This document shows positions 280 through 13,721 of a DNA stretch of 22,343 nucleotides, piece by piece (the stretch's first letter is position 1; every line of letters starts with the position of its first letter). The DNA comes from a virus. The position numbers were made by a program, and so were the translations under genes. The stretch is taken from IMG/VR virus record IMGVR_UViG_3300031857_001526, positions 1-22,343 of that record; one strand, given 5' to 3'. Below the pieces are notes generated by a model. That model was not told the DNA's origin and searched no databases. It was given only the letters and a program-made list of their open reading frames with translations.

Positions 280-1602
280 TTATAACTCGTCCAAATAATC
301 CTTTGTTGGTTGTACATCTTGCTCAATGGGTGCGTTTACATCTTCCAATAGTCCGTAATTGCCAGTAATAAGAAACTGCTCATGTTCTGCCTTTCCGCTT
401 TCCTCAAATCCTGTAAGCATTCTCAATTCTTTTGCATTGATAGCCCCACGGTCAAACATACCACTCCATACAGTCCACATCTTACTCAAGTCCTCTTGTA
501 ATTCAGGAATCGAACTAAAGTCAAAATCAACCACACCGTTTTTAAATGAAGGTGCTAAAACTCTGTTTAATTCATCCCTTAATGAGTTACACATCGGCAT
601 CACTAAATCCGTTACGAATTTCTTTTGCGCCCACTCTTTGTTGCTAAAACTTTGACCTGGTATTAATACGTCAGGGTCTATTCCTAAAGCTAAGGATATA
701 CGTTCTAAGGTTACTTGCTGGCTCTTTAATAACTCCATATCTACGCTGTCCTTTCCAATGTCTAAATAACCCCATTTGCCCTGTAAGGAAGCCACAGCAG
801 CTTTCATATCCTTATTGTTAATCTTCCTGTCAATAACCCCTTTTATTTGCGTAGCTTGTTCAGGGGTTAAGTCGGTGTATGTTTCGTTATAAAGAACACC
901 CTTTGCGCCTCCGTTTTGAAACATAGCCACAGCCGCTTCCATTGCATCGTTATCCTGTTGTAACCTTCTTTTAAGTGGGCTTAACGGGTCAAACCCTCTC
1001 ATGTGCGTTCTTTCGTAAGCATCAAATTCTGGGTTGAATGTTTTCCAATGAATTACGTCTTCTTTAGGGATTGATATTTGTGTTCCGTTAGCATCGAATA
1101 TGTAACCTAAAATGCCGTACAAATCCTGCGGGTCAGGAACTAACTCTATTTTGTCGGGTGGGATAATATACATTTCCAACACCCGACCTTTCTCAAAGCC
1201 GCCACGATTAAGCCATATAAAACATTCGCCTCTTAAAACGTAAAAAGCAAACACACCTTCCCAAAATGAATCAGCCCCTTGTACGGGGTTTGGTCGCATT
1301 ATCAATTTAGCGAAGTCGCTATCTTCAATTACTTCATCTACTGACTTTATTTTGTCCAGCAGCATCTTTTTTAAGTTGGGTGTGTACCAATAGGCTTTAA
1401 ACTTTTCGCCTTTCTGTTTGTAAACATACATCGGAACACCAGCCGCTTTTCTTGCTATCTTCTTAACGACTGTAAAAACAGTGTCATTATTTACAAAAGC
1501 ATCACTGTTCTTATCCCATTTAAAATAAGTAGGGGCTGCACCTATCTGCACCCCTTGAAATGTCATGCCTTTCTTCCTGAATAAATTAGTGAACCAACTC
1601 AT
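280..1602 (-). CDS. Phage portal protein, HK97 type
   Basis: A 440-residue protein that should form the dodecameric ring at the capsid vertex through which DNA is packaged and ejected. Its length and layout fit the HK97-like portal family: a basic N-terminus (MSWFTNLFRKKG), an early helix with a KKIARKAAGVP-type segment near residue 50, and a central part with RPNP, the FYVLRGECFIWLNRG stretch and the IPPDKIELVPD stretch. A C-terminal helical region has ISLALGIDPDVL followed by a long segment ending in an acidic tail. It begins directly after the large-terminase stop (TAA 1605-1603, ATG 1602-1600), so terminase and portal form one packaging operon. No frameshift is seen. Confidence 0.93.
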   Translation of the reverse strand: MSWFTNLFRKKGMTFQGVQIGAAPTYFKWDKNSDAFVNNDTVFTVVKKIARKAAGVPMYVYKQKGEKFKAYWYTPNLKKMLLDKIKSVDEVIEDSDFAKLIMRPNPVQGADSFWEGVFAFYVLRGECFIWLNRGGFEKGRVLEMYIIPPDKIELVPDPQDLYGILGYIFDANGTQISIPKEDVIHWKTFNPEFDAYERTHMRGFDPLSPLKRRLQQDNDAMEAAVAMFQNGGAKGVLYNETYTDLTPEQATQIKGVIDRKINNKDMKAAVASLQGKWGYLDIGKDSVDMELLKSQQVTLERISLALGIDPDVLIPGQSFSNKEWAQKKFVTDLVMPMCNSLRDELNRVLAPSFKNGVVDFDFSSIPELQEDLSKMWTVWSGMFDRGAINAKELRMLTGFEESGKAEHEQFLITGNYGLLEDVNAPIEQDVQPTKDYLDEL

Positions 1603-2781
1603 TTACATTGCTACCCATGTAGGGCTTTTAGTTGTTAATTTCGTAAACACAGCGTATCTTAAAGCATCTAAACTGTGGTCATTTTCTTTAACGGGTGCTT
1701 CATCTGCTGCTATATTCCCGTCTTTGTCTGTTTTCCACTTGTATGATTGCAATTCTCTTTTAATGTTTTCGCTGTTGTGAGTAACAAATAAAGGATAAGA
1801 CTTTAATTTCATAATACCGCCCCACACATCTTTTTCACTTGGCTTTGCGTTAAAACCGCATCTTGTTAATTCCTCTATTGTTTTTGGTTCTGCTGAATCA
1901 CAAAACAATTCATCACTCCTCGACAAATTTAACACCTTTAACTTGTTTACTAAGTCGCTTACTGTCAACTTGCTTTGATACAGCATTTCCTCAACATAGA
2001 TTGCACCTTCGTAATATTCAACTTTTACTAACGCAGTGGGTGCAGTATAACCAAAGTCCAAACCGTAAAAGATTTGTCCTTTGTTTGGCAGTTCTTTTAC
2101 TATCTTCCAAGCGGTGTAAATTAATTCTTTACTTGCACCACGTTCACCTAACCCGTACACCTTCCACATGAAATCATCGGGTAATTCTTTGTAGGATTCA
2201 ATGTATTCAACCTGAACAAGGGAGAGGTTATGTATGTTGTCTAAGTAAGTAGAATGTATTTTCTTATTCTTTGGATTGTCGGCTATGTCATACACCCATG
2301 AATTAAATTCGGCTGGATTCCAGTCCATGAAAATAGTTCCTGTGGTACGCATGGCTAACTGGTCAAATAACAGTTTAGATATTAGGTTTGCTTCGTTTAC
2401 AAAAAGAATATCCCTTGCAGGCCCTCTTGCCTTGCCTTCATCTTCTAAACCAAATAACTCAATATAAGAACCGTTGGTAAACTCATAAACAAAGTCAGTG
2501 TATCTGAAATTATTATCGTTCCACCATCCGCAATCTTCCATTATTAGTTTAAAATCACGATATGCACCCCGTTTAATGTGTGGTAAAGAGTGAGATACTA
2601 TTGAAATACGTGTGTTTGGAGTTGATTTAGCAAGTCCGCAAAGTAGTTGGATGATTGAGTAGGTTTTACCGCTTCGACTTCCTCCTTCGTTACAAATGAT
2701 TGAACAGCCGTCTAAATAGGCTGCGTAATTGGATTGAAATACAGGGGTTGTGTTAATTTCCTTTGGTTCTGAAACGTTCAT
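1603..2781 (-). CDS. terL: Phage terminase large subunit (packaging ATPase and nuclease)
   Basis: 392 residues, the usual size for the PBSX/XtmB-like (Terminase_3) group. The ATPase half has a Walker A motif GGSRSGKT at residues 33-40 and a Walker B-like ILFVNEA near 124-130. The RNase H-like nuclease half shows GLDFGYT (Asp241), FCDSAEP (Asp294) and DHSLDALRYA (Asp367 and Asp371), the acidic residues expected to bind metal. It docks on the portal, pumps DNA and cuts the concatemer. The start overlaps the upstream small-terminase gene by 29 bases and the stop abuts the portal start. All key motifs are intact. Confidence 0.95.
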   Translation of the reverse strand: MNVSEPKEINTTPVFQSNYAAYLDGCSIICNEGGSRSGKTYSIIQLLCGLAKSTPNTRISIVSHSLPHIKRGAYRDFKLIMEDCGWWNDNNFRYTDFVYEFTNGSYIELFGLEDEGKARGPARDILFVNEANLISKLLFDQLAMRTTGTIFMDWNPAEFNSWVYDIADNPKNKKIHSTYLDNIHNLSLVQVEYIESYKELPDDFMWKVYGLGERGASKELIYTAWKIVKELPNKGQIFYGLDFGYTAPTALVKVEYYEGAIYVEEMLYQSKLTVSDLVNKLKVLNLSRSDELFCDSAEPKTIEELTRCGFNAKPSEKDVWGGIMKLKSYPLFVTHNSENIKRELQSYKWKTDKDGNIAADEAPVKENDHSLDALRYAVFTKLTTKSPTWVAM

Positions 2782-9876: not shown

Positions 9877-10018
9877 ACACGGAGGCCACCGCAAAGGTTC
9901 AGGAGCTAAGTTAAAATACGGTGAGCCTACTACTCCCGTAGTTATAAGAGTACCAAAAAGCAGGGTTAAAGAGTTTAGAGCCTTTGTAGGGGTGGAGTTA
10001 AAAAAATGGCAGCGATGA
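9866..10018 (+). CDS. Short ribbon-helix-helix-like protein
   Basis: 50 residues. The N-terminus is Gly/Lys/His-rich (MKTKHGGHRKGSGAKLKYGE), a type common in small phage DNA-binding proteins, and TTPVVIRVPKSRVKEFRAFV fits a ribbon-helix-helix: a beta strand with alternating residues followed by a helix. That fold binds DNA as a dimer, so a small repressor or accessory is likely. Its stop lies in a dense overlap with the following gene (an alternative ATG at 10015 overlaps the TGA at 10016-10018). Confidence 0.65.
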   Translation: MKTKHGGHRKGSGAKLKYGEPTTPVVIRVPKSRVKEFRAFVGVELKKWQR

Positions 10019-10290
10019 ACTTCATTGAATCGCTCACCATCCCAGCAGTAGGCTGGATGAATCAAATTGAAAGTAAAGCAGGTATTGAAGCCGTTAAACG
10101 CTGCATCGGTAATTCAGGAGTTATAAGAGAAATGCTGGCAAAAGGTTATCAGGTAATTAAAAACGAAAAGCCTATTCAATCCGCACCCTATGAAACTAAA
10201 TTAAAACTGTGGGACGAATCAAAAATATTTTGTGAACATGATAGGATGGAGTTTTGCGAAGCGGTTTGGTTTTGGGAGTGTGCGAAGTAA
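10006..10290 (+). CDS. Hypothetical protein, last gene before the cassette array
   Basis: 94 residues (91 if the ATG at 10015 is used; that ATG gives the ATGA overlap common in this operon, while a GGAG lies upstream of 10006). It is mixed helical and contains several Cys and Trp residues near the C-terminus (FCEAVWFWECAK). The family is not recognised. Its TAA (10288-10290) is part of the AAGTAAC core of the first attC-like site, as in two genes of the array. No complementary cassette start is seen upstream, so I place it as a phage gene at the array border rather than a certain cassette gene. Confidence 0.65.
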   Translation: MAAMNFIESLTIPAVGWMNQIESKAGIEAVKRCIGNSGVIREMLAKGYQVIKNEKPIQSAPYETKLKLWDESKIFCEHDRMEFCEAVWFWECAK

Positions 10291-10412
10291 CGTTTGCAGC
10301 TTTGCGATGTGTGGGCTTTGGAATACCAATGGTCAACACTTGCACTACTGCCAAATAGGATTACAAAAGATGAATTAACCACGTCTGCCCACATATTGCA
10401 AAACTGTTTGTC
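10285..10412 (+). repeat. attC-like site A (left border of array)
   Basis: The R''-like core AAGTAAC is at 10285-10291. Left arm 10297-10316 and right arm 10387-10406 pair at 17 of 20 positions; all three differences are transitions. The arms enclose a 70-base loop. The right core GTT at 10406-10408 is followed by TGTCATGTGC, only an imperfect partner of the end of the next cassette. Confidence 0.7.
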
Positions 10413-10447
10413 ATGTGCAGTACGGTAAATTATAAAGAATTAAAAAT

Positions 10448-10846
10448 ATGAAACAAGTAAATTTATTTGGTCAAGAGTTTGCACCAAATCAAGATGAACA
10501 AAAGTATTCATCAAAGATTGAAGCACCTATTTATGAGCCTAAAAACGCAAAACCACACTTAATGGAACTTTGCGATAAAAGCAAAACTCATAGATTAATA
10601 AGAGAAATTGATATGTCTAATTTGCCTATTGAAGAAAAGAACTTTTTAATGGATGCAGCAAGGAGGCACAATGTTTTTAACTATGAAAAAATAGCTGATT
10701 ACTATGCTCACGCTACACACGAAATGCAACAATTAATGGAACGCAGTGGATTAGTAATTATAGACTTTGAAAAGGCTATTCAATATGGATTTGTAAAATT
10801 ATCAGAAGAAATAAAAACTCAATACCTTACTGAATATGGAGAATAA
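10448..10846 (+). CDS. Conserved-looking phage protein, partner of the glycosyltransferase
   Basis: 132 residues. A flexible N-terminus (MKQVNLFGQEFAPNQDE) leads to a helical domain with THRLIREIDMSNLPIEEKNF, ARRHNVFNYEKIADYYAHAT and QLMERSGLVIIDFEKAIQYG. No catalytic motif, membrane segment or signal peptide is seen. The sequence has the feel of conserved phage proteins found next to DNA-modification or ParB-like genes, but I cannot name a family. It overlaps the glycosyltransferase gene by 11 bases, so the two form a unit carried in cassette 1. Confidence 0.75.
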   Translation: MKQVNLFGQEFAPNQDEQKYSSKIEAPIYEPKNAKPHLMELCDKSKTHRLIREIDMSNLPIEEKNFLMDAARRHNVFNYEKIADYYAHATHEMQQLMERSGLVIIDFEKAIQYGFVKLSEEIKTQYLTEYGE

Positions 10847-11693
10847 AGATTTTTGCGTATTTGTTATATCGCACGGAAGACCAAACGATTTATACACAGT
10901 TGATACATTAAAAAAATATAATTACACAGGTTCGTTTTATATTGTATTGGATGATGAAGATAAAACTATTGAGCAGTATAAAAAAAAATACAACAATATA
11001 TTGGTTTTTGATAAAAAACAAATTGCTGATTTGACAGATGAAGGCAATAATTTCGACAATAGAAGAACCACTACACACGCAAGAAACGCCTGTTTTGATT
11101 TAGCTTATAATCTTGGGTTTAAGTATTTTTTAGTTTTAGATGATGATTACACAGTTTTCAGGTATAGGTACATAGATAAATACATAACAAAAGGTTATGT
11201 TCAAAATTTAGATGAATTATTTTTGAAAACATTTAATTATTATGAAAAATGTAATTTTACATCAATAGCGTTTGCGCAAGGTGGCGATTTTATAGGCGGT
11301 GAAGGATGCGGACTTTTAAAGAATTATTTGTATAATAGCAAAAAGTGTATGAATAGTTTTTTTTGTAGCACGGATAGAAGATTTTGGTTTGTCGGTCAAT
11401 TAAATGAAGATGTAAATACTTATGTTTCATTAAGTGCAAAAGGGCATTTATTTTTAACAATCCCATTTATAGGACTTGAACAGAAAGCAACACAAAAAAC
11501 AAAAGGCGGTATGACTGATGCCTATTTAAAATATGGAACATTTGTGAAAAGTTTTACAACTGTAATGTTTCAACCAAGTAGTGTATTTGTGGCGATGATG
11601 GGATTTACAGAAAATAGACTTCATCATAGAGTAATACAACGTAAAACAAGCCCTATGATATTAGATGAAAAGTATAAAAAATTTAATCATTAA
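10836..11693 (+). CDS. GT-A glycosyltransferase, TET-associated (TAGT)-like, probable DNA-base modifier
   Basis: 285 residues. The N-terminus (FVISHGRPNDLYTVDTL) is the nucleotide-sugar strand/loop of a GT-A fold, FKYFLVLDDDYTVFRYRY carries the metal-binding DxD motif (Asp102-Asp104), and HARNACFDLAYNLG precedes it as in phage TET-associated glycosyltransferases. A later GGMTDAYLKYGTF region and FQPSSVFVAMMG complete the family-like layout. Such enzymes are thought to glycosylate hydroxylated pyrimidines in phage DNA to resist restriction. No TET/JBP oxygenase or hydroxymethylase is in this window, so the acceptor is unknown; a capsule or surface glycan is the alternative. Confidence 0.72.
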   Translation: MENKDFCVFVISHGRPNDLYTVDTLKKYNYTGSFYIVLDDEDKTIEQYKKKYNNILVFDKKQIADLTDEGNNFDNRRTTTHARNACFDLAYNLGFKYFLVLDDDYTVFRYRYIDKYITKGYVQNLDELFLKTFNYYEKCNFTSIAFAQGGDFIGGEGCGLLKNYLYNSKKCMNSFFCSTDRRFWFVGQLNEDVNTYVSLSAKGHLFLTIPFIGLEQKATQKTKGGMTDAYLKYGTFVKSFTTVMFQPSSVFVAMMGFTENRLHHRVIQRKTSPMILDEKYKKFNH

Positions 11694-11733
11694 ATCATTA
11701 GAGGGTGGGCAAAAAAAAATTAAAACAAATTGC

Positions 11734-11869
11734 GCATAACGTAAAAGTATTGCTGAAGGCGGGATATTCACGGTTCGTCCGCCCAGTAGCTTAATAGATA
11801 AAGTTGATTTGCGAACCATTGTTGATAGCGGTTACGTCTGCCCCGCTTTTAGCAATACAAATGTTGGCA
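11734..11869 (+). repeat. attC-like site B
   Basis: R''-like core GCATAAC 11734-11740; left arm 11747-11763 and right arm 11842-11858 pair at 15 of 17 positions (two transitions); right core GTTGGCA 11863-11869. The start GTTGGCAGCA matches, as reverse complement, the end of the next cassette at 12070-12079. Confidence 0.8.
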
Positions 11870-11882
11870 GCAGTTATCTTTT

Positions 11883-12068
11883 ATGAAAGTCAAATTAACT
11901 ATTGAAGTAGAACTTGAAGATGGTTATATACTTCATGCCGATGATGAAGAAAGAGAGTGGTTTGAAACAGAAGTGTTGGCAGGTGATGGAAGTCTTTTAC
12001 TTCACTCAAATGAAGTCGGAGACACCGTTGGTACAGTAAGGAAGGTGCAAATCTTAGGGTACTCCTAA
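11883..12068 (+). CDS. Small cassette-encoded hypothetical protein
   Basis: 61 residues, acidic and strand-rich: MKVKLTIEVELEDGYILHAD, then DEEREWFETEVL, ending VGTVRKVQILGYS. Likely a small beta-sheet protein; no recognised family. It is the sole gene of cassette 2 (about 216 bases between the recombination points), starting 14 bases after the attC core and ending 5 bases before the next. Tiny single-gene cassettes of unknown function are typical of chromosomal integrons. ATG at 11883 is the only good start. Confidence 0.7.
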   Translation: MKVKLTIEVELEDGYILHADDEEREWFETEVLAGDGSLLLHSNEVGDTVGTVRKVQILGYS

Positions 12069-12072
12069 TTGC

Positions 12073-12165
12073 TGCCAACGTTTTGTGGCTTGGCGAAGGC
12101 TGCCTAACGGATGCTCAATTTTCGCACAAATTTCAATGGCAGCTTTTGCCAAACCGCTGTTATGT
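12073..12165 (+). repeat. attC-like site C
   Basis: R''-like core TGCCAAC 12073-12079; left arm 12085-12104 and right arm 12138-12157 pair at 16 of 20 positions (four transitions); right core GTTATGT 12159-12165. The shortest site, 93 bases, in the normal attC length range. GTTATGTGC matches the cassette end at 12473-12481. Confidence 0.82.
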
Positions 12166-12204
12166 GCTAGGCGGTTTATCAGCACTGAATTTAAAACTTA
12201 ACAA

Positions 12205-12480
12205 ATGAATACCAAAAGAAAAGAAAAGATTAAGCAAGAAGCAAAAAGAAGACTAAATGAATGGCTTAAAAACTCAACATTTGATGAAATGTCTGTATGT
12301 GGTAGTTTTATTAGATTTAATATGTCTATTGGTTTAAGTGGTTACCCATTTGAAAAACCTGAATGGATGAAAGACAAAAAGTTTAACAAATTTATTTCAG
12401 ATGAAGAATTTGATTCTATGGATTATGACGAAATAATGTCAGAACTTTTTGAGTTAGCACAGTCAGAGCCTTGCACATAA
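12205..12480 (+). CDS. Small cassette-encoded hypothetical protein
   Basis: 91 residues: a basic N-terminal helix (TKRKEKIKQEAKRRLNEWLK) followed by an acidic C-terminal part (DEEFDSMDYDEIMSELFELA) with a short Cys-containing middle (VCGSFIRFNMSIGLSGYPF). No recognised domain or membrane segment. Sole gene of cassette 3. The TAA stop (12478-12480) is part of the ACATAAC core of attC-like site D, so the recombination site supplies the stop codon. The charge polarity could suit a toxin-antitoxin or nucleic-acid partner, but that is speculation. Confidence 0.7.
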   Translation: MNTKRKEKIKQEAKRRLNEWLKNSTFDEMSVCGSFIRFNMSIGLSGYPFEKPEWMKDKKFNKFISDEEFDSMDYDEIMSELFELAQSEPCT

Positions 12481-12608
12481 CGTTCAGCCCGCTTTGTGCT
12501 GTGGCGGCAAATGCAGCACAACAGTTCAATATTGATTAACAGTTAAAATACATTCAAATGTCAAATAGTAATTCGTCAGCCTCCATAGCACAAAACGGCT
12601 TGTTAGCC
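12475..12608 (+). repeat. attC-like site D, with a start codon in its loop
   Basis: R''-like core ACATAAC 12475-12481; left arm 12491-12508 and right arm 12579-12596 pair at 15 of 18 positions; right core GTTAGCC 12602-12608. The 70-base loop contains the ATG at 12558 that reads through the right arm into cassette 4. Confidence 0.8.
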
Positions 12609-12806
12609 GCCGTGCTTTCAAAGGTGAAATTTCCCTGTTATTTCGATGAGGGAAGCGGGTTCATACTTGACCAAGATGGCAAGATGATATGTGAAATACG
12701 TGGCTGGGGATGGATACAAAAGTTGGGAGCTGATGCAGAGGCAATGCAAGACGAGTTTGGTAGAAAGATATGTGAGTTGATTAATGGTATGTCGCATGGC
12801 GGCTAA
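12558..12806 (+). CDS. Small cassette-encoded hypothetical protein, N-terminus read from attC
   Basis: 82 residues if started at ATG 12558, which lies in the loop of attC-like site D. The first 15 codons then belong to the attC (including IAQNGL from the right arm), and the cassette proper begins at the Leu-Ala-Ala-Val. GTG at 12612 is an alternative start inside the cassette. The body is small and mixed: FPCYFDEGSGFILDQDGKMI, CEIRGWGWIQKLG, then an acidic helix and GMSHGG. No recognised family. The TAA (12804-12806) is part of the GGCTAAC core of site E. Confidence 0.65.
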   Translation: MSNSNSSASIAQNGLLAAVLSKVKFPCYFDEGSGFILDQDGKMICEIRGWGWIQKLGADAEAMQDEFGRKICELINGMSHGG

Positions 12807-12932
12807 CGTTTTGGGGCTTTGCGAAGGCAGGGCTTTTAACCACTAAATTTAATTATAAAGATGAATGATATATTTAACGAGAATGTTCCTTTGAAAACGG
12901 AAACCCCCGCTTTTGTAAAGCACGTGTTACCA
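12801..12932 (+). repeat. attC-like site E, with a start codon in its loop
   Basis: R''-like core GGCTAAC 12801-12807; left arm 12814-12832 and right arm 12905-12923 pair at 14 of 19 positions; right core GTTACCA 12926-12932. The loop contains the ATG at 12861 of the methyltransferase frame. GTTACCAGCA matches the cassette end at 13695-13704. Confidence 0.8.
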
Positions 12933-13676
12933 GCAGTGCCTTTGTCGGAGGTTTATTTAGAAGATTGTGCAACGGCATTAAAACGCTATGCAGATAACCA
13001 TTTTGATTTGGCAATAGTTGACCCTCCTTATGGGATTGGCGAAGATGGAAGAAAATCAAAAGGCAGAACAACCCGAACTGATGGAACTATAAGAAATGGA
13101 ATTGACAAAAGAAATGGAGCAACTATTTTTAGAAAGACTGCAGATTATTCCATAAAAAATTGGGATGAAAAAGCACCTGATGAAGAATATTTTAAAGAGT
13201 TAATTAGGGTATCTAAAAATCAAATAATATTTGGAGCAAACCACTTTATAGAAAAAATACCAAATGCAAATTCAAGCGGTTGGATAGTTTGGAATAAAGT
13301 AAATGGATGCAGTGATTTTTCAGATTGTGAATTGGCTTGGACATCATTTAATAAAGGAGTTAGAAAGGTTGATTTTATGTGGAATGGAATGTTGCAAGGT
13401 TCAGAAGCTAATGGCTTAATAAGTGAAGGGAATAAAAGCAAGTGTGAAAAAAGAATACACCCGACCCAAAAGCCGAAATACATTTATAAGTGGATATTAA
13501 ATAACTATGCCACAAATGGCGATTTGATTTTAGATACCCATTTAGGAAGTGGAAGCAGTAGGGTTGCTTGTTGGGAAATGAAATTTGATTTTGTAGGATT
13601 TGAAATAGACAAAGAATATTATGAGAAACAAGAAAAGCGTTTTAATGACTTTAAATCACAACTTCGGTTGTTTTAG
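12861..13676 (+). CDS. Beta-class DNA methyltransferase (N6-adenine or N4-cytosine), cassette-borne
   Basis: 271 residues from ATG 12861. Catalytic motif IV is DPPYGIG (residues 54-60) and the AdoMet-binding motif I is DTHLGSGSSRVACWEM (225-240), with FVGFEID after it; HPTQKP at 200-205 is the usual approach to motif I. The order IV...I marks the beta class. Homologues normally begin close to the Glu-Asp-Cys-x-x-x-Leu segment (here EVYLEDCATALKRY, about 30-43), so the first 25 residues, encoded by attC-like site E, are an added leader; GTG at 12936 is an alternative start. No restriction enzyme is adjacent: an orphan methylase that could shield phage DNA. Specificity is unknown. Confidence 0.88.
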   Translation: MNDIFNENVPLKTETPAFVKHVLPAVPLSEVYLEDCATALKRYADNHFDLAIVDPPYGIGEDGRKSKGRTTRTDGTIRNGIDKRNGATIFRKTADYSIKNWDEKAPDEEYFKELIRVSKNQIIFGANHFIEKIPNANSSGWIVWNKVNGCSDFSDCELAWTSFNKGVRKVDFMWNGMLQGSEANGLISEGNKSKCEKRIHPTQKPKYIYKWILNNYATNGDLILDTHLGSGSSRVACWEMKFDFVGFEIDKEYYEKQEKRFNDFKSQLRLF

Positions 13677-13694
13677 CGGTGTCGGTTCTGGCAT

Positions 13695-13721
13695 TGCTGG
13701 TAACACGTATATTGTTATTAC
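13695..13721 (+). repeat. Cassette-end core at right border of array, no visible attC arms
   Basis: TGCTGGTAAC (13695-13704) matches in reverse complement the start of the methyltransferase cassette (12926-12935). No paired left/right arms follow. A GTTATTA stands at 13714-13720, only 9 bases further on, so the last site appears truncated. Confidence 0.55.

Follow-up and report, generated by a model that had tools for sequence, protein, structure and literature searches.

An integron-type gene-cassette array on a tailed phage and its probable membership of a Bacteroidota-specific class

The phage array and its five attC-type sites

Our study examined the virus record IMGVR_UViG_3300031857_001526, a stretch of 22,343 nucleotides (hereafter the window, meaning the whole of this DNA), whose portal, terminase, ERF, NinG, DnaB and peptidase genes identify it as a tailed phage. 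Region 10285-13704 contains five hairpin sites with short co-directional open reading frames (ORFs) between them, making up five cassettes. An earlier note, made from the sequence alone, had recognized in five spacers of this region the parts of attC sites, namely cores and imperfect arms, and had read the region as an integron-type array lacking an integrase.

The sites were scored with a covariance model of our own (R1), which took the place of the IntegronFinder attC model and was built from 23 diverse bacterial chromosomal sites and zero window sites. Its seed pattern, AACGTTTNGNNGCTTNGCGAAGG, was searched for in species-representative bacterial genomes and matched at least 119 bacterial stretches, nearly all from Bacteroidota, with an AAC-to-GTT length of usually about 123 bases. 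The stem of R1 covaries, with 41 cells changed on both sides compared to 14 in shuffles. Run on the 22-kb window, R1 returned exactly five plus-strand sites, scoring 85.1 to 28.0 bits, and the rest of the window gave no match at E <0.3 other than the minus strands of the same five palindromic sites. The arms of sites 1 to 5 were paired at 17/20, 16/18, 16/20, 17/20 and 14/19 positions, respectively. The earlier note had named failure of the arms under covariance scoring as grounds for abandoning its reading and had suggested a comparison with Bacteroidota chromosomal sites; the arms scored highly, and a model made from bacterial sites recovered all five sites of the window.

10282-10419, plus strand: attC-type site 1 (R1 68.4 bits), arms with three conserved non-Watson-Crick positions (C.A, G.T and G.T); its R'' core is GCGAAGTAAC, which contains the stop codon of the phage gene at 10006-10290, and its R' is partly decayed
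11731-11872, plus strand: attC-type site 2 (R1 28.0 bits, E 1.1e-5)
12070-12168, plus strand: attC-type site 3 (R1 75.1 bits), a hairpin type also present in viral contigs L002 and L006
12472-12611, plus strand: attC-type site 4 (R1 42.4 bits)
12798-12935, plus strand: attC-type site 5 (R1 85.1 bits, E 3e-21)
280-2781, minus strand: portal and terminase large subunit genes (PF04860, PF04466/PF17288), which mark the element as a tailed phage

The five sites lie in tandem and in one orientation (+), spaced 187-1312 bp apart with short ORFs between them, as in clusters of attC sites lacking an integrase (CALINs). As in attC sites generally, they combine R'' and R' cores with folded arms that show strand asymmetry, the coding strand folding more stably in 3/5 sites and equally in one. 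A family matching the window hairpins was not found in Rfam. A home-made finder of arms plus cores also returned matches in shuffled sequence and had no useful specificity, so the covariance model was used instead. Region 10285-13704 is thereby confirmed as five attC-type sites with five cassettes.

Cassette units, gain and loss, and the acceptor end

Cassette ends were compared by the complementarity between the ten bases that follow a site, starting from GTT, and the ten that precede the next one, up to AAC. In the window these matched at 8, 10, 9 and 10 of 10 positions, with a terminal match of 10 of 10, giving the complementary R'/R'' pairs seen in CALINs. The four complementary pairs reported in the earlier note were recovered exactly as GTTGGCAGCA, GTTATGTGC, GTTAGCCGCC and GTTACCAGCA, to which the first cassette adds its 8/10 match. 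Across seven arrays, ends matched at 9 or 10 of 10 in 50/64 adjacent pairs vs 31/691 non-adjacent pairs, and bacterial loci gave 60/87 vs 18/367. Because ends match in adjacent and rarely in non-adjacent pairs, they belong to the cassette, as in integrons.

10292-11740, plus strand: cassette 1; hairpin, ORF 10448-10846 (match to a ParB-like partition protein, PHROG 620), ORF 10836-11693 (TET-associated DNA glycosyltransferase), R'' TGCGCATAAC at 11731-11740; ends 8/10
11741-12079, plus strand: cassette 2; hairpin, ORF 11883-12068 (61 aa, no assigned function), R'' TGCTGCCAAC; ends 10/10
12080-12481, plus strand: cassette 3; hairpin, ORF 12205-12480 (91 aa, no assigned function), R'' TGCACATAAC; ends 9/10
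12482-12807, plus strand: cassette 4; hairpin, ORF 12558-12806 (82 aa, no assigned function, start codon within the hairpin), R'' GGCGGCTAAC; ends 10/10
12808-13704, plus strand: cassette 5; hairpin, N6/N4 DNA methyltransferase ORF 12861-13676 (PF01555, start within the hairpin), bare terminal core TGCTGGTAAC at 13695-13704, which matches the last R' at 10/10 and has no hairpin after it
13705-13720, plus strand: candidate acceptor (attI-like) sequence ACGTATATTGTTATTA, adjoining the array end; it occupies the place that the recombinase-proximal sequence has in bacterial arrays and the constant TACAATATTACATGAT in the Flavobacterium phages

The cargo of a DNA methyltransferase, a DNA-base glycosyltransferase and small ORFs probably represents a DNA-modification toolkit against host restriction. 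Relatives of the cassette 3 gene (12205-12480) were not found in 199 Flavobacterium-genus genomes or in phages. A search for the window cassettes elsewhere, as the earlier note had proposed, located the methyltransferase cassette in isolated Flavobacterium phages; it is 90% identical, over aligned pieces, to that of phage hemulen6-1, and the similarity begins at the core before the hairpin and stops at TGCTGGTAAC, that is, at the cassette ends.

Over the stretches read, each of the isolated lytic Flavobacterium phages (Lillamyvirus and Muminvirus) has 9-13 sites, in differing order, and phages with 97-100% backbone identity hold differing sets of about 25 cassette types. Three clean gain or loss events were seen, between snork and lillamy, tooticki and mumin, and mumin and filifjonk. 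In each, the breakpoint falls within a TAACG or TAACGTT common to the two phages, at the R'' core rather than R', which places the crossover at AAC|GTT. Where the same gene had different neighbours, its upstream hairpin was kept at 84-100% identity (genes 4, 5, 7, 11 and 16) and its downstream hairpin changed, with 19-52% identity (genes 2, 3, 4, 5, 10 and 12). The cassette unit is therefore hairpin, R', gene and R'', and the attC of a phage cassette does not lie 3' of its gene as in CALINs, since the hairpin travels with the downstream gene. This amends the earlier note in one respect, each hairpin belonging with the gene that follows and not with the preceding one: its integrase-less, integron-type array in a phage stands, and the cassette unit is mirrored, with the hairpin first.

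Relatives of the window phage, picked via the terminase (33 loci, 451 kb), gave one weak R1 match, and one relative (terminase large subunit 78% identical) has, at the place that corresponds to the array, two sites accompanied by another gene. The contig of another relative, G412, stops before the array position and is uninformative there, and viral contigs yielded no relatives of the window helicase or phosphoesterase. The spacers are thus not fixed intergenic sequences of related phages, the outcome that the earlier note had considered damaging to its reading, as phages with a related terminase mostly lack sites. Cassette arrays of this kind are a common feature of Bacteroidota phages. The same site family occurs in the genomes of two uncultured phages, each about 640 kb long (LR756502 and LR745206), and in a 170-kb viral contig (IMG/VR 3300043411_001575), where 10 kb contain at least 11 sites whose cassette ends match.

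A unit composed of hairpin, R', gene and R'' implies a hairpin at the start of every array and a bare core at its end, and this was the case in 20/20 arrays tested, the window included. In the bacterial arrays that adjoin a recombinase (12/12), a distance of about 50-125 bp separates the bare core from the recombinase ORF, in the manner of attI. The Flavobacterium phages have a constant TACAATATTACATGAT after the bare core, behind several different last cassettes; their distal cassettes (types 0-1-2) are common to arrays, and the acceptor-proximal ones vary. A constant acceptor side, a varying last cassette and conserved distal ones amount to the polarity that entry of new cassettes at the acceptor would produce. 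Polarity was read from array ends, and duplicated bacterial cassettes gave two ambiguous pairs. By its position, the 13705 sequence ACGTATATTGTTATTA may work as the acceptor of the window array.

Mirrored gene orientation and the linked recombinase

Orientation was scored, for the gene next to R', on the site strand that reads AACGTT...GCGAAGG. Genes on the same strand and on the opposite strand numbered 111:11 in viral loci and 4:142 in bacterial loci, and an array-only count gave 35:5 vs 3:44. Chromosomal arrays are canonical, with an acceptor, a gene reading away from it and attC after the gene, and phage cassettes of the same family have the gene inverted. The window follows the phage rule, which is why a hairpin opens its array and a bare core closes it. 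Of the four bacterial exceptions, two were the recombinase gene itself and a third was a prophage locus; this locus, in a Saprospiraceae metagenome-assembled genome (L012), has a Mu-type portal and terminase and a PAPS-reductase-like cassette with its start within the hairpin. Four viral loci of bacterial orientation were examined (L158, L191, L198 and L152): one has a reverse transcriptase, and the other three have genes of bacterial defence type; TIR, a restriction helicase with methylase, the reverse transcriptase and GmrSD are candidate defence cassettes.

The phage-coding strand was the better folder in 92/101 bacterial sites (arms only), because of the conserved C.A, G.T and G.T positions. 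IntI cuts at AA^C on the folded strand, and by analogy the phage-coding strand would be the recombining strand in this family.

Sites were found in 86/198 Bacteroidota species (43%), a candidate recombinase in 70/198 and both in 53 (odds ratio 9, p=1.2e-11). Among the 119 bacterial site loci listed, which were pattern-picked and span ≤8 kb each, 18 had a recombinase match within them, and all 17 site-bearing genomes examined contained integron-integrase-like matches, every one under the IntI cut-off and often adjoining the sites. Eight proteins were identified as tyrosine recombinases with 199-231 bits to TIGR02249, short of its cut-off of 265 (IntI1 control, 505), and NF040815 ('site-specific tyrosine recombinase/integron integrase') was their best or second-best match. 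Archaeal and bacterial IntI are defined by an additional domain (PMC9668308), and the recombinase lacks this domain near patch III, with 29 residues vs 71 in VchIntIA; the spacing from KGxKxR to RH(S/T) is 61-70 residues, vs 103 in IntI1 and 65-69 in Xer proteins. A profile of the family set array-linked members, mostly at 244-451 bits (with two weaker bacterial hits, 218 and 175), apart from IntI at 217-221 and Xer at ≤195. Phylogenetic inference split the recombinase family plus IntI from Xer with full support; the plasmid integrase included is a deleted IntI1, so the tree effectively holds one IntI and no exact IntI branching is claimed. The predicted structure of one family member (pLDDT 76) was closest to XerA and IntI, and, as for IntI, the gene stands next to an attI equivalent and a cassette array, in 12/12 arrays.

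Several further loci touch on this recombinase. Five other viral loci with sites encode it, and three of them also match phage gene families. An array-linked member from Runella (genome G015, L128:1201-2313) is fused to an N-terminal SSB domain, and three others (L130, L133 and L137) have N-terminal extensions, with one weak HARP match (PF07443, E 0.0025) and similar domains of about 70 residues by eye; such SSB or HARP-like domains, possibly binding folded single strands, would suit a single-strand substrate. The deleted IntI1 (L284, Escherichia coli plasmid p135-2) is annotated as an integron integrase, and its internal deletion covers most of the IntI-specific insertion. A family member also occurs on the mobilizable plasmid pls1 of Pontibacter kalidii, with no R1 site within 6 kb. 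Two metagenome-assembled genomes labelled Klebsiella and Limnohabitans (L116 and L051) contain Bacteroidota-type sites, probably through mis-binning.

Proposed cassette exchange, alternative explanations and significance

The sites, their matched ends, cassette-precise gain and loss at AAC|GTT among near-identical phages, the constant acceptor side, the orientation rule and the association of recombinase with sites are established at the level of sequence, and we infer that the insertion-less recombinase catalyses cassette exchange, with the single-stranded hairpin as its substrate. The window array is probably made up of cassettes of the integron type that belong to a Bacteroidota-specific class; the tailed phage carrying them has no recombinase of its own, and the host enzyme would exchange them. 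During phage replication, the coding strand of each site would fold into a hairpin, and a host tyrosine recombinase, a relative of IntI that lacks the IntI insertion and has its gene beside chromosomal arrays, would bring this hairpin together with the acceptor or another site. Strand exchange at AAC|GTT would then insert or remove a unit of hairpin, R', gene and R''. New cassettes would enter beside the acceptor (13705 onwards in the window), from which side the array would grow, and the phage genes, pointing toward the acceptor in a mirror image of chromosomal cassettes, would come to lie in the phage's direction of transcription.

Several observations weigh against this interpretation. A tyrosine recombinase was not found in the 22-kb window record, which is thus not a complete integron, and 33/86 site-bearing genomes had no recombinase match at threshold, although some of these are drafts. 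The acceptor sequences of different lineages align poorly. Gene 3 had an upstream hairpin of 48% identity and gene 13 a downstream hairpin of 93%, as if exchange had taken place on the hairpin's other side. The hairpins are repeats, and homologous recombination between them could likewise rearrange cassettes, though the breakpoints share only 5-7 bases.

This last possibility is central to a different account, in which the array is a dead CALIN that was captured once from a chromosome and whose hairpins, by now inert, are repeats that homologous or illegitimate recombination rearranges. The lack of an integrase in the window record, the degenerate R' of site 1 and degenerate site 2, and a cassette order that is mostly common to several Moomin phages would all fit such a history. 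It is nevertheless unlikely, as the sequence common to the breakpoints is no more than TAACG or TAACGTT and they map to a single point of the site, cassette ends are still matched at 9-10/10, and the contrast between variable acceptor-proximal and conserved distal cassettes has the polarity of active integration. Furthermore, the opposite gene orientation of chromosomal cassettes means that simple capture of a chromosomal block does not yield the array.

An ordinary canonical CALIN recognized by classical IntI, with nothing special to the phylum, is more doubtful still. IntI1 recombined phage attC sites, including one of Polaribacter phage P12002L (PMC9892861), and R1 finds one site in this phage. 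However, apart from In0 elements, IntegronFinder 2.0 reported a single complete integron, that of Salinibacter, in Bacteroidetes (PMC9024848), yet R1 sites occur in 43% of species, they adjoin a recombinase that is not IntI, and the recombinases of the 17 site-bearing genomes all fall below the IntI cut-off. That the hairpins are phage regulatory elements or terminators resembling attC is scarcely credible, for although they lie 5' of phage genes, with start codons inside the hairpin in 17/35, the same sites form chromosomal arrays beside a recombinase with genes on the other strand, and neither end matching nor cassette-precise indels are expected of regulators.

CALINs have been reported from phages before. 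Qi et al. 2023 (PMC9892861) described 17 of them and found that five phage attC sites worked with IntI1, in keeping with the remark in the earlier note that few are known in phages. Those of virulent phages (TJE1, P12002L, PH101 and MW202573) resemble the window in their integrase-less attC arrays, short ORFs and DNA methyltransferases. They differ in that divergent attC directions were taken as mosaicism, without a rule of mirrored orientation, and in that no Bacteroidota site family or associated recombinase was described; the main text of that paper does not mention Flavobacterium phages by name. Sedentary chromosomal integrons, such as the Vibrio cholerae superintegron, share a recombinase, an adjoining acceptor, cassettes with matched ends and folded attC sites, and the Bacteroidota chromosomal genes likewise read away from the acceptor. 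In contrast, the Bacteroidota recombinase lacks the IntI insertion, often has extra N-terminal domains and is variable in orientation, the site arms have conserved mismatches rather than classical extrahelical bases, and phage genes are inverted. IntI (TIGR02249; VchIntIA, PDB 2a3v) and archaeal XerA (NF040815, 5hxy) are the closest known proteins by sequence, fold and tree and share the C-terminal SPxD motif, whereas IntI1 differs in the 103 residues between KGxKxR and RH(S/T) noted above. The system is therefore set apart from classical integrons by two defining features that it lacks, the IntI insertion and, in phages, an attC 3' of the gene.

No report of the recombinase-site association, the phylum-wide distribution or the mirrored phage cassettes was found in the open-access literature, subscription papers and preprints lying outside this search, and all three appear to be unreported. 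On balance, and with less assurance than for the window itself, we favour a phylum-wide class of Bacteroidota integrons whose recombinase lacks the IntI insertion, together with a separate phage pool of mirror-image cassettes that exchanges anti-restriction genes at phage-borne acceptors.

If this is correct, a major phylum would possess a large gene-capture system whose linked recombinase is excluded by current definitions and which standard surveys have largely missed. It may also offer a candidate mechanism for an observation in another member of the phylum, Riemerella anatipestifer, in which aph(3')-IVb with a 140-bp attC-like 3' flank underwent homology-free, site-specific insertion after transformation, by a mechanism left unsolved (PMC13148043); that case shares the phylum and the attC-like flank, but involved a single resistance gene and no recombinase was identified. 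The insertion-less recombinase would provide a natural comparison for the role of the IntI-specific insertion, and the isolated Flavobacterium phages are a ready laboratory system in which to follow cassette exchange. That gene orientation flips so cleanly between chromosome and phage is a new finding in need of an explanation, as if viruses kept a cassette pool of their own.

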